A stretch of 64,000 bases of DNA from Chaetoceros tenuissimus (Eukaryota; Bacillariophyta; Thalassiosirophyceae; Chaetocerotales; Chaetocerotaceae): assembly GCA_021927905.1 (NCBI GenBank), contig BLLK01000062.1, forward strand, positions 1,054,001 to 1,118,000. The letters are read 5' to 3'. A program made the translations under genes and the position numbers. Every line of letters begins with the position of its first letter. The first letter of the stretch is position 1. The notes beneath the pieces are model-generated. The model saw only the letters and a list, made by a program, of their open reading frames with translations, was not told the DNA's origin and did no database searches. Below are positions 50,089 through 58,655 of this stretch, piece by piece.

Positions 50089-50832
50089 TCATTTCCTCCT
50101 GCGCCAAGAATAAAGATTTGCACCTAGATCAATTGTTACACCGCCATTTTCAGCAAAAGCTAGTCCTCCATCATGGATTGTTTCCCATTTGTTTTCATCA
50201 AATGCTTCGCTGATTACGTCTGAAGGAATGACGTTGGAAATACTAACCACTTTGCCTCCTGATACTGTGACCCTCTCTAATTCTGATATAGATTCTTTGA
50301 AAGCCTCAATTGAATGGATATAAATTGCATCTAACGTTCCTTTATCAAATGTAGTATCTATAGATCCATCATTCAAAGGTAAATCCCTTGCATCAGCCTG
50401 AAAAATATTCACATTTCTATCGGAGAATAAAGTCTTTGCCCTCTCAACTGCTGCATCAGAATAATCAAACGCGATCATATTATTCCAACCTTCGTCAAAC
50501 ATCTGAACAGGAACAATATCATTTCCAATTCCAGCTACCAAAATTTGTGAAGATTTATCAGGTACCAAATCAAGCCAAAATGGTTTTATTTCTTCCCATC
50601 CACTGTACCACGAGTATTTATCAGCGGGTCGATCACCATTCCCATTATACATATCATCCCAGTATTTCTTTATCCCAAACACACATTTTCCCGTGGAATC
50701 ATCAATATTAGATGTACGAGTAAGTGACATCTTTGTAGATTGCCTCCTTATTGATATTCTTGCTGCTTCATGATTTCGTTTGCTCCGAGTTTCAGATGTA
50801 AACGCAATGAGAAGGATATGTTTGAGAATCAT
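50089..50832 (-). CDS. SAM-dependent methyltransferase, EEF1AKMT4/METTL13-like
   Basis: 247 residues, single exon, first ATG at 50832. The family's leading motif KKYWDDMY and YSWYSGWEEIKPF come before motif I, ILVAGIGNDIVPVQM, which binds S-adenosylmethionine. VNIFQADARDLPLNDGSIDT and FDKGTLDAI are the post-I and catalytic-face motifs seen in the EEF1A lysine methyltransferase group. The N-terminal ~45 residues (MILKHILLIAF..., then Arg/Lys/Ser-rich) could be a mitochondrial or other transit sequence; MSLTRTSN is a possible internal start. Protein lysine methylation is likely but the substrate is inferred. Confidence 0.83.
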   Translation of the reverse strand: MILKHILLIAFTSETRSKRNHEAARISIRRQSTKMSLTRTSNIDDSTGKCVFGIKKYWDDMYNGNGDRPADKYSWYSGWEEIKPFWLDLVPDKSSQILVAGIGNDIVPVQMFDEGWNNMIAFDYSDAAVERAKTLFSDRNVNIFQADARDLPLNDGSIDTTFDKGTLDAIYIHSIEAFKESISELERVTVSGGKVVSISNVIPSDVISEAFDENKWETIHDGGLAFAENGGVTIDLGANLYSWRRRK

Positions 50833-50914: not shown

Positions 50915-50919
50915 AAAAA
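50915..50919 (-). terminator. RNA polymerase III T5 terminator of the permuted tRNA-Cys gene
   Basis: Five T on the minus strand, 4 nt after the anticodon-loop end of the 5' half. It closes the transcription unit exactly where expected if the halves are transcribed in the permuted order. Confidence 0.7.
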
Positions 50920-50922
50920 GTA

Positions 50923-51001
50923 TCTGCAATCGAACGCTCTACCACTGAGCTATATGCGCGCAAGAAGCGCACAACCGGGATCGAACCAGTGACCATTCGA
51001 A
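50923..51001 (-). tRNA. Circularly permuted tRNA-Cys (GCA): 3' half precedes 5' half
   Basis: On the minus strand the order is 3' half (51001-50966), 6-nt link TCTTGC (50965-50960), 5' half (50959-50923), then ATAC and TTTTT (50919-50915), a Pol III terminator. 5' half: acceptor GCGCATA, D arm GCTC/GAGC with loop AGTGGTA, G26, stem TTCGA, loop TTGCAGA (anticodon GCA). 3' half: stem TCGAA, variable TGGTC, T arm ACTGG/CCGGT with loop TTCGATC, acceptor TGTGCGC, discriminator T. Acceptor pairs 7/7 (one G-U), D 4/4, anticodon 5/5, T 5/5 (one G-U). U73 and the GCA loop are Cys identity features. No CCA is encoded. GCAGAT occurs at both outer ends (51007-51002 and 50927-50922), so the exact exon ends in the anticodon loop are ambiguous. 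Processing by circularisation is inferred. Confidence 0.85.
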
Positions 51002-51206
51002 ATCTGCTAAGGAGAACAGTTGAAATCTAGTATATATATATGCAAATTATAGATGAAGTTCTTCATGACCACGCATTATTTTTTTTTGGAAAGAATGTTG
51101 TCGTCCATTCAAACAGCAAACAGCACTATCGATATGTCCATTGTGTAAAAACAAAGTTGAATTTTTGTTTTCAGGTTCAAACCTAGCTAGTATATTTTTT
51201 GAAACT

Positions 51207-52766
51207 ATGGGATCAAAGCAATCGAAACCTGTTCAGCAAACACAAACTTCAGTTGTTCAAGAACCTGTCGTGAAGACTGAACTTGAAAATGCTGATACTA
51301 TTGATGCAACTCCAAAGAAACTTCCTGTTGGACATCCAAAAATAGACGCAAAAGATGGAAATGGAACAGGCGAGTGCCCATACAAAAATCCTCTAAAGAG
51401 TATAGGTGGTCTATTTGGGAAAAAACGAGTCGCTGATGAGTCTCCAATAGCTCCAAAGAACAATGATTCAATTCAGAATGATGCATCTCAAAGTGGTGGT
51501 TGTCCAGTAAAGGCAAAGAGTGAAAGCAATCAATCTGGAGGAGGTTGCCCTGTAAAAGCTTCAGGATCCAAGACTGTGTACAATGTTTACTCTCAGCCAA
51601 TTGATCCAACAAATAATATGCCGTCAGTGGCGAATCAGCTTCCTGCGCCTATGCAAAATGAAGAATTGTCAACAGAACGTGTGAAATCAACTATTCCAAA
51701 AGGAGGCACAGATGGCGATACTTGGCAATATCCTTCTCCACAAATGTTTTACAACTCGCTTGCAAGAAAGAATAAATTGGGTGATACGGAAGAATCGGAT
51801 ATTGCATCAGTTGTAGCTATTCACAACAATATGAATGAGAAAACCTGGGCAAAAGTAATGGAATGGGAAGACGTCCTTTGTCCAGAAGCAAAGGTCAATG
51901 GCGGATCGAAGCTGCTAAAATTTTTGGGAAGGCCATCTGACTTATCACCAAAAGCTAGAATTAAGAACATGCTATTTGGCCACCCTCTGCCTTTTGATAG
52001 ACATGATTGGACTATTCAAAGACCTGATGGTACAGAGGTTAGATATGTCATTGATTACTATGTGGATGAGACCAAGGCAGATGACTCAGAGGGAAGTGGA
52101 TTTCCTGATATGAATGATCGTGATGCAATCAAGAGCATTTTGGTAGACGTTCGTCCAGCCGCAGATTCTGTAGAGAATGTAATGGGTAGAACTATGACCA
52201 TGCCATACGCAAGAAGAATTGAAAAAAGTACAAATTTTGAACCTTTACCTATGCTTCCTACAGAGGAAATGAAACAACAAATTGAAGAGAGTGAAAAGGT
52301 GTGGCAGAATATTCAACAGAGCGTTCAAGAGAGTAAGACAAAGAAAGAAAAGAGCATGATATTGAAACCTGAAGATATTCCTGATGACCAAAAGAAGGAT
52401 TTTGGACTTGACATAAGTGAAGAGGAGGCAAGAGAAATTGCACAGTCGTTCGCAACTATGCTGGGTAACTGTAAGAATATGCAAGAGGCAGTGAATAATT
52501 GCAAGGATGAAGCAGAGTGCTCCAAGGCTGCATTAGGACTCACTATGTGTCTTGCGAAAGTTGTTTGTCCACTTCAGCAAAATGCTGTGGCTCAAGCTTT
52601 AAATGCAGATGATTTTGATCATAATGATGAAAAAGCAGTTGAGGCATACAATGCTAAATTTGAGAAGGCTTTGGAAAATATGACTGTTTGTGTGACTGGT
52701 AAATCAGCGGCAGCTGCGGCAGCAAGACAAAAATATCCAGACTTGTTCCAAAATTTAGAGAAGTAA
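51207..52766 (+). CDS. Holocytochrome c synthase (heme lyase) with C-terminal twin-Cx9C extension
   Basis: 519 residues; ATG at 51207 gives MGSKQSKP, an N-myristoylation-type start. CP heme-regulatory motifs follow (GECPYKNP, GGCPVKA twice). The HCCS domain spans ~130-345: SPQMFYNSLARKNKL, NMNEKTWAKVMEWEDVLCP, KFLGRPSDLSPKARI, HPLPFDRHDWTIQRPDGTEV (with the heme-ligating His) and VRYVIDYYVDE, ending ILVDVRPAADSVENVMGR. It attaches heme to cytochrome c in the mitochondrial intermembrane space. After a charged linker, residues ~425-480 carry C-x9-C-x5-C-x9-C (NCKNMQEAVNNC, ECSKAALGLTMC), a CHCH-type twin Cx9C, absent from the ~270-residue animal and fungal enzymes as I know them. It is divergent from the methyltransferase gene, with the tRNA gene between. 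Confidence 0.92.
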   Translation: MGSKQSKPVQQTQTSVVQEPVVKTELENADTIDATPKKLPVGHPKIDAKDGNGTGECPYKNPLKSIGGLFGKKRVADESPIAPKNNDSIQNDASQSGGCPVKAKSESNQSGGGCPVKASGSKTVYNVYSQPIDPTNNMPSVANQLPAPMQNEELSTERVKSTIPKGGTDGDTWQYPSPQMFYNSLARKNKLGDTEESDIASVVAIHNNMNEKTWAKVMEWEDVLCPEAKVNGGSKLLKFLGRPSDLSPKARIKNMLFGHPLPFDRHDWTIQRPDGTEVRYVIDYYVDETKADDSEGSGFPDMNDRDAIKSILVDVRPAADSVENVMGRTMTMPYARRIEKSTNFEPLPMLPTEEMKQQIEESEKVWQNIQQSVQESKTKKEKSMILKPEDIPDDQKKDFGLDISEEEAREIAQSFATMLGNCKNMQEAVNNCKDEAECSKAALGLTMCLAKVVCPLQQNAVAQALNADDFDHNDEKAVEAYNAKFEKALENMTVCVTGKSAAAAAARQKYPDLFQNLEK

Positions 52767-57600: not shown

Positions 57601-57995
57601 TCACCGCAACTATGTCCTTGTTTAGATGTGATAAAGGTGCCCGTGATAAGTTCTTCTGCGCAGCACATGGCGGCGGTAAAAGATGCAAACAAGCGGGGTG
57701 TAACAAATCCGCTGTTGGGGGGTCTAATCTATGCACCAGTCACGGTGGAGGACGTCGTTGTGCAGTAGAAGGTTGCCAGAAGTCAGCCCAATCATCGACA
57801 AAGTTTTGTGTCAAACATGGCGGAGGAAAAAAATGTGCACATGAAGGATGTGAAAAGGTCGCAAGAGGAAGAACCCAATTTTGTGCAGGTCACGGTGGAG
57901 GTGTCAGATGCAAACTCGATGGCTGTACTCGTATAGCAATCGGTAAGATGCAACTTTGTAGAACGCATGGTGGAGGCTCAAAGAGGAAATTATAG
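54666..57995 (+). CDS. GAF-domain protein with seven WRKY19-like Cys/His fingers
   Basis: 949 residues from exons 54666-54789, 54970-55245, 55321-55622, 55688-56566, 56649-57547 and 57626-57995. The N-terminus (MDPERIHAYLQAACAGLGFD, EVWF, KFLQLYTSKSYNNRR, AVGMPVAMDADGNMCIVVMF) looks like a GAF-type sensor split over three exons. A second GAF-like domain lies at ~330-420 (RAFCSGCPVWSTNTETIVDT, KTCLAVPIFSTG). A Gln/Asn-rich linker follows. The C-terminus has seven repeats of CxxxGCxKxAxxxxxFCxxHGGG, as in the WRKY19-like fingers of stramenopile proteins. Probably a nuclear regulator that senses a small ligand; DNA binding is inferred. The acceptor at 54970 is the least certain junction, chosen because an in-frame TAA precedes it. 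Confidence 0.82.
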
Positions 57996-58202: not shown

Positions 58203-58655
58203 TTACTTCTTTTGAGAACCGACTTCATGTTTGACATTCCTTTTATGCCTGAATGGAGCATGTCCAGAGGATATTGCCAATTCATCCACCACAAAATAAT
58301 GAATTGAGTCATCAGTTAAATTGGAAGTCTCAATCTGATCCTCCATAACTCCACTTTCTTTCGTGAATGCAATAGTTCCTTCATGTTTCTTTGCCGTGGG
58401 TGTTATGGATACTACCACTAGTTGCTTATGAAGTGTACTCATACTTCTCGCAAGTGTTTGAATTTGTAGCCAATTTACACTGGAATCTGGTCCAACCAGG
58501 CTAACGCAGAAATCAGAATGGACTTTATCTGGATCATCGGCATATAAAACTAATTCACATCCAAATTGTAAACCTGAATGTACACGATACCCCTTCCGCT
58601 GGAAATGTTTCCTCGCTATTGCGCATCTTTCTTCATGAGATAAACTGGTTTCCAT
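58203..58655 (-). CDS. tRNA-splicing endonuclease subunit, TSEN34-like catalytic domain
   Basis: 150 residues, single exon, ATG at 58655. The whole protein is the tRNA-intron endonuclease catalytic fold: ARKHFQRKGYRVHSGLQFG, CELVLYADDPDKVHSDFCV, VNWLQIQTLARSMSTLHKQL. The RNase-A-like triad is intact: Tyr38, His46 and Lys77. Spacing of 8 and 31 residues equals what I recall for human TSEN34 (Y247, H255, K286), while TSEN2 has a longer second gap. There is no N-terminal domain, so it is shorter than TSEN34 or TSEN2, similar in size to archaeal subunits and Sen15. It would cut introns, and the junctions of permuted pre-tRNAs, at the 3' or 5' site. Inferred from motifs; Sen15 is less likely because it lacks the triad. 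Confidence 0.75.
   Translation of the reverse strand: METSLSHEERCAIARKHFQRKGYRVHSGLQFGCELVLYADDPDKVHSDFCVSLVGPDSSVNWLQIQTLARSMSTLHKQLVVVSITPTAKKHEGTIAFTKESGVMEDQIETSNLTDDSIHYFVVDELAISSGHAPFRHKRNVKHEVGSQKK

Follow-up and report, generated by a model that had tools for sequence, protein, structure and literature searches.

Evidence for circularly permuted tRNA-Cys(GCA) genes in the nuclear genome of the diatom Chaetoceros tenuissimus

Circularly permuted tRNA genes carry the 3' half of the tRNA ahead of its 5' half, and 34 of them have been tabulated in six algae and one archaeon, with linkers that span 1-74 bp (PMC3978253, Table 1). Their record is patchy, comprising a red alga, some green algae, a chlorarachniophyte nucleomorph and one archaeon (PMC3978253, PMC12633428), and a diatom would extend it to a distant line that has a red-type plastid, the stramenopiles. 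Among described genes, the closest come from Ostreococcus lucimarinus, O. tauri and Micromonas pusilla, whose tRNA-Cys(GCA) is permuted with a type II junction (Maruyama et al. 2010, via PMC3978253); for green algae, the permuted junctions have been described as hBH motifs located at 37/38 (PMC3978253). In the open-access literature that we searched, no permuted tRNA gene is reported from a diatom or any other stramenopile, and a report in subscription papers remains possible. Here we describe a locus in a stretch of 64,000 nucleotides of the C. tenuissimus genome (GCA_021927905.1, contig BLLK01000062.1, positions 1,054,001 to 1,118,000; henceforth referred to as the window, in which positions without a contig name are numbered). 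We consider it very likely that this locus is a working, circularly permuted (type II, 37/38) nuclear tRNA-Cys(GCA) gene, one of three that probably supply, between them, all cytosolic tRNA-Cys; there is no RNA evidence, and transcription, circularisation and aminoacylation are inferred. The kind of gene is already known and, as far as the open-access literature goes, the diatom and stramenopile lineage is likely to be new for it. An earlier note on the window, made from sequence alone, had suggested that such a gene may be undescribed in diatoms, and this held within the same literature.

Architecture of the locus and its copies

The tRNA parts lie on the minus strand of the window. The leader upstream of the 3' half reads ...TTA GCAG AT, of which the last six bases (51002..51007) belong to a putative bulge-helix-bulge (BHB) motif. 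It is followed by the 3' half of tRNA-Cys (50966..51001), which comprises U38, the 3' strand of the anticodon stem, the variable loop, the T arm (B box at 50987-50977), the 3' strand of the acceptor stem and U73, and which is the same in two other loci of the genome. A linker, TCTTGC (50960..50965), then separates position 73 from position 1 and leads into the 5' half (50924..50959), made up of the 5' strand of the acceptor stem, U8 and A9, the D arm (A box at 50952-50942), the 5' strand of the anticodon stem, the anticodon GCA (50927-50925) and G37. The unit closes with a trailer, ATAC (50920..50923), and a run of five T residues (50915..50919) that is likely an RNA polymerase III terminator. 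The assignment of both halves rests on the sequence itself, on ARAGORN and on a permuted-tRNA model. With the 3' half preceding the 5' half on the same strand and only a short linker in between, the order of a type II permuted gene is met in all three copies (linkers of 6, 6 and 8 nt).

When joined, the two halves form a tRNA of 72 nt in which 21 of 21 cloverleaf pairs are standard (7+4+5+5), and ARAGORN calls the joined halves plus CCA as tRNA-Cys(gca). Judged by eye, the eukaryotic consensus used here (U8, G18G19, U33, R15:Y48 and TTC; PMC3978253) is met by the window tRNA-Cys, which has U8, G15:C48, G18G19, U33 and U54U55C56. An acceptor register two bases upstream (GCGCGCA) is also readable in the window copy; it was rejected in favour of GCGCATA, which is preferred because of its U8-A9 spacing, the resulting length of 72 nt and the fact that this part is common to all three copies. 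The earlier note had claimed, for the minus strand, the order 3' half, 6-nt link, 5' half and T5 run, together with full pairing of all four stems and a tRNA-Cys(GCA) identity. All three claims held, the order letter by letter.

Linear ARAGORN and Rfam at its gathering score called no tRNA anywhere in the window, and this is the expected behaviour of linear tools, which are blind to the locus because the gene is permuted. Under circular topology, ARAGORN reported tRNA-Cys(gca) with a break after base 37 in six of six loci covering the three copies, as opposed to none of the six in linear mode. Detection in circular mode only is the behaviour expected of a permuted gene, and the ordinary or intron-bearing gene order, with the 5' half upstream of the 3' half, is not met at any of these loci. 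We then scored the locus with a permuted-tRNA model (R2) derived from 13 ordinary nuclear tRNAs of the same genome that were permuted in silico, with Cys left out. The search space consisted of the window and a choice of 22 of 83 loci, 23 sources in total (100,863 bases), within which the window locus scored 72.6 bits (E 9.8e-22) and the other two copies 72.6 bits (contig C32) and 66.4 bits (contig C20). This search, of a kind that the earlier note had suggested, recovered all three Cys copies; the next-best match (47.6 bits) was a pair of tRNA-Ala genes that stand in natural tandem, and all others, for the most part halves of ordinary tRNAs, reached no more than 30.9 bits. The match of the window locus to the Cys-free model is far beyond chance. 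An earlier permuted model that included the Cys gene gave 82.1 bits, which involves circular reasoning and is not independent support.

To establish how often the gene occurs, the joined tRNA (a 74-nt query that included two linker bases at its 5' end) was compared by BLAST with the whole genome (41,027,912 bases in 68 contigs). The search returned six half-matches that make up three permuted genes and nothing else (3 candidates scored): the window copy on contig C48, C32:1986293-1986370 and C20:116599-116678. Both halves are letter-identical across the three copies, the linkers are TCTTGC in C48 and C32 and CATCGAGT in C20, and the flanks of 1.3-1.4 kb share just short, weak matches (best E 0.018) and are unrelated. 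The identity of the exons may reflect selection, and recent copying or gene conversion would also yield it; two of the three copies (C48 and C32) have the same linker.

Intact outer halves, that is, a 5' half upstream or a 3' half downstream of the locus, were not found by BLAST with both halves, which returned just the two halves of each permuted gene. The absence of second half-copies nearby, claimed earlier, was thereby upheld, and a tandem tRNA pair with overlooked outer halves was rejected, in contrast to the real tandem pair of tRNA-Ala. The earlier note had also taken GCAGAT, repeated at both outer ends of the locus, as a mark of origin by tandem duplication. This claim failed as evidence: the leaders of the other two copies are GCATATT and TCAAATT, without GCAGAT. 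The GCAG of the window leader could be explained equally well by its pairing with UUGC in the splice motif, and a tandem-duplication origin is neither supported nor excluded.

Three observations concern other parts of the genome. The tandem tRNA-Ala-like genes (C42:47086-47348; positions 1-263 of locus L068) are separated by about 34 nt and, judged by eye, the upstream member seems to be decaying; the pair illustrates in nature the tandem stage from which permuted tRNAs have been proposed to arise. In the window, the permuted tRNA lies between two divergent ORFs (50089-50832, minus strand, and 51207-52766, plus strand), which we take, as a guess from their sequence, to resemble a methyltransferase and a cytochrome c heme lyase. 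A short ORF on the plus strand (57612-57995) consists of repeated Cys-rich units ending in HGGG, which we take to resemble the zinc-binding repeats of WRKY19-like proteins.

Transcription signals and predicted processing

A TATA-like element, TATATATATA (51031..51040, minus strand), precedes the first exon base of the window copy by 30-39 nt, and TATA starts at -37 to -33 in all three permuted copies. This result was reached by 0.08% of shuffles and is indicative only, since the interval was picked after the positions had been seen. In the flanks of ordinary tRNA genes (a sample of 20 of 39), TATA occurs at -40 to -25 in 8 of 20 (shuffle mean 3.7, P 0.02) and the region from -45 to -20 is AT-rich. 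On the downstream side, TTTT is present within 30 nt of all 20 ordinary genes (shuffle mean 9.8 of 20) and of all three permuted genes; TTTTTG follows 3/3 permuted and 6/20 ordinary genes, and TTTTGC follows 2/3 permuted and 11/20 ordinary genes (shuffle mean 0.6). Each permuted copy therefore has the upstream TATA-like element and the downstream T-stretch sought in such a gene, with no T-run in the linker, and these signals resemble those of the ordinary tRNA genes of the same genome. Dependence on the TATA-like box is inferred to be likely because the B box here precedes the A box, and the same argument has been made for Cyanidioschyzon merolae (PMC3978253). In this scheme RNA polymerase III, aided by the upstream box, would make a single RNA that contains leader, 3' half, linker, 5' half and trailer and ends in the T-run. 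As a separate observation, the TTTTGC found within 30 nt after ordinary tRNA genes (L064-L083) may be an extended form of the Pol III terminator used by this diatom.

Beyond the anticodon stem, UUGC (tRNA positions 32-35; 50929-50926) can pair with the leader GCAG (51007-51004), leaving two 3-nt bulges: AGA on the 5' side, which is completed by the first A of the trailer, and AUU on the 3' side, formed by the AU of the leader and U38. In a standard BHB the cuts fall after the second base of each bulge. The cuts predicted here (AG^A, after G37, and AU^U, before U38) correspond to the canonical intron site (type II) and would result in a 7-nt loop, UUGCAGU. As a sequence motif, a BHB with 37/38 cut sites is thus met in the window copy with 4/4 central pairs, and cutting itself is inferred. 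The bulges are kept in the other two copies, which have 3/4 central pairs each (leaders GCAU and UCAA). In such AT-rich sequence, the chance per copy is ~0.17 for at least 3/4 pairs and ~0.016 for 4/4, and these values cannot be multiplied because the copies are related. The lowest-energy precursor folds given by RNAfold, which retain 10, 10 and 0 of the 21 cloverleaf pairs in the three copies, count against the model.

The motif seen in the sequence would allow the ends of the transcript to pair via the anticodon stem and the BHB. A splicing endonuclease would then cut both bulges and a ligase, probably RtcB, would join G37 to U38 to produce a circle, from which RNase P and tRNase Z, by analogy with C. 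merolae and green algae, would excise the linker at the acceptor end before CCA addition gives a normal 72-nt tRNA-Cys. The earlier proposal of end-joining to a circle followed by cutting at the termini is supported by the BHB motif, circularisation itself being inferred. A likely cutting enzyme is encoded in the window, outside the tRNA gene, by a gene with a tRNA-splicing endonuclease catalytic domain (tRNA_int_endo; 58203..58655, minus strand; PF01974, E 3.5e-15). It was the single match to this family in the genome search (2 candidates scored), and among PDB sequences it matched an EndA-like endonuclease best (E 1.2e-6) and Sen34 (0.0038) and Sen2 (0.26) more weakly. RtcB is encoded at C32:462167-463562. 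A search with PF09511 (Trl1-type ligase domain) gave no match and is uninformative, as its controls were silent too. The endonuclease gene lies ~7.2 kb from the permuted tRNA whose ends the enzyme would cut, and this closeness is probably due to chance.

Search for an ordinary tRNA-Cys gene and rival explanations

A normal tRNA-Cys(GCA) gene elsewhere in the genome had been named beforehand as a finding that would refute the permuted reading; it was looked for by BLAST and by sequence patterns and none was found, although the search is incomplete. A tRNA-Cys 5'-half pattern with up to 3 mismatches matched 3 sites in the genome, all of them the permuted genes (control 0). A contiguous anticodon-to-T-loop pattern with one mismatch matched 20 sites (control 12) without revealing an ordinary tRNA-Cys: three are tRNA-Trp genes, two nuclear and one in C67 (the latter judged by its letters and its place in the Rfam search), and neither ARAGORN nor cmscan recognised a tRNA at the other 17. 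Another 5'-half pattern, looser and with one mismatch allowed, also matched 20 sites (control 6): the permuted genes accounted for three, trnC of the plastid (C68) for one, and the remaining 16 are not tRNAs. Two candidates were rejected individually: L048 (C14:343639-343664), similar in its matched letters to the Cys 3' half, was recognised as a tRNA by neither ARAGORN nor cmscan, and L084, which matches the looser 5'-half pattern without mismatch, is not a tRNA. The trnC gene on C68, by which the plastid carries its own tRNA-Cys, was the sole tRNA among the newly examined pattern sites. We take the first 10 kb of C68, a plastid contig, to encode petB, petD, rps2, rpoC1 and rpoC2, and they also encode PsaD, which is identical at 138/139 positions to 6l4u_D of Chaetoceros gracilis photosystem I (PMC7235021); this near-identity marks the assembly, whose contig C48 carries the window, as that of a diatom.

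BLAST of the genome with human and yeast tRNA-Cys was empty. This is a weak test: when eight human tRNAs were submitted as one query, just 3/8 isotypes matched (Asp, Phe and Pro, at 15 sites, of which five were examined and all five proved to be ordinary genes), with no match for Gly, Glu, His, Gln or initiator Met. The Rfam tRNA family search of the genome scored 63 of 2036 candidates. It overlooked nuclear Asp, Phe and Pro genes and also the plastid trnC, which a direct scan puts at 62.2 bits. Outside C67 and C68 it gave 39 of its 63 matches, of which 32 were read and 31 typed by ARAGORN, none as Cys; the seven unread matches have the same bit scores as Ala, Lys, Ile and Asn genes. One locus (L038; C34:437149-437306) is a tRNA-Lys-like fragment, matched by Rfam over positions 8-63 only and not called by ARAGORN. 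An exact scan with a 22-nt core of the Cys 5' half found 0 matches in a prokaryote collection and 0 in a virus collection, which is uninformative on conservation among diatoms, and BLAST against phages was empty. Runs of N in the assembly may conceal further tRNA genes. Overall, the genome likely has no ordinary nuclear tRNA-Cys gene, which is unproven given the incomplete searches and the N runs.

The rival that survives best holds that the permuted copies are relics, or recent copies that do not work, and that the cell is served by an ordinary tRNA-Cys gene hidden where the sequence is unread or masked. In its favour are the incomplete genome search, in which known tRNAs were overlooked, the N runs that may conceal genes and the lack of expression data. 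Against it, the exons are letter-identical in three copies whereas linkers and flanks differ, and old relics would drift; the TATA-like and T-run signals are retained; and neither BLAST with the gene's own sequence nor the three patterns detected an ordinary nuclear tRNA-Cys. We regard this rival as unlikely. Less likely still is a split tRNA, in which the halves would be made as separate RNAs and joined in trans. The order of the halves alone is compatible with this and archaeal split tRNAs exist (PMC4033280), but the linker is just 6-8 nt long and without a T-run, and the TATA precedes the 3' half, with the T-run following the 5' half. A misjoining of halves from two tRNA genes during assembly, which the earlier note had named as a possible refutation and on which no read data bear, is very unlikely given three copies in the same order on three contigs (C48, C32 and C20), with different flanks and two different linkers.

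We therefore retain the reading of a working permuted gene with two sister copies. A bolder version of it, which we favour by a small margin only, is that all cytosolic tRNA-Cys comes from the three permuted genes, the ordinary gene having been displaced by the permuted form, which later reached new loci, apparently moving as a bare transcription unit. The permuted form may be shared across Chaetoceros or other diatoms, and may have arisen independently of the permuted prasinophyte tRNA-Cys or been exchanged with it.

Significance and comparison with known permuted tRNA genes

If the permuted genes are indeed the sole source, each nuclear-encoded cytosolic protein that contains cysteine would depend on RNA circularisation, and removing or blocking these genes would directly test whether RNA circularisation is essential. 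Three prasinophytes likewise have a permuted tRNA-Cys, and convergence versus gene transfer thereby becomes a testable matter. In related genomes where standard scanners detect no tRNA-Cys, it would be worth seeking in permuted form.

The tRNA-Cys genes of the prasinophytes and of the diatom are alike in isotype, anticodon, 37/38 junction, leading 3' half and short linker. The linkers differ in length, being 26, 38 and 12 bp in O. lucimarinus, O. tauri and M. pusilla compared to 6, 6 and 8 in the diatom; prasinophytes are green algae and not stramenopiles, and their tRNA-Cys may or may not share its descent with that of the diatom. C. merolae shares with the diatom a TATA-like box within 50 bp upstream, a downstream T-stretch, a BHB and a short linker (Soma et al. 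2007, via PMC3978253), and its two permuted genes for one Gly(CCC) indicate that multiple copies occur there too. Whereas C. merolae has 11 genes with four junction types, only type II tRNA-Cys was found in the diatom, in which the other isotypes read were ordinary (not all isotypes were read). The same architecture is found in the nucleomorph of Bigelowiella natans (Ser, type II; PMC3978253), in the archaeon Thermofilum pendens (iMet and Tyr, type IV; PMC3978253) and, according to a later report, in the green alga Auxenochlorella (PMC12633428).
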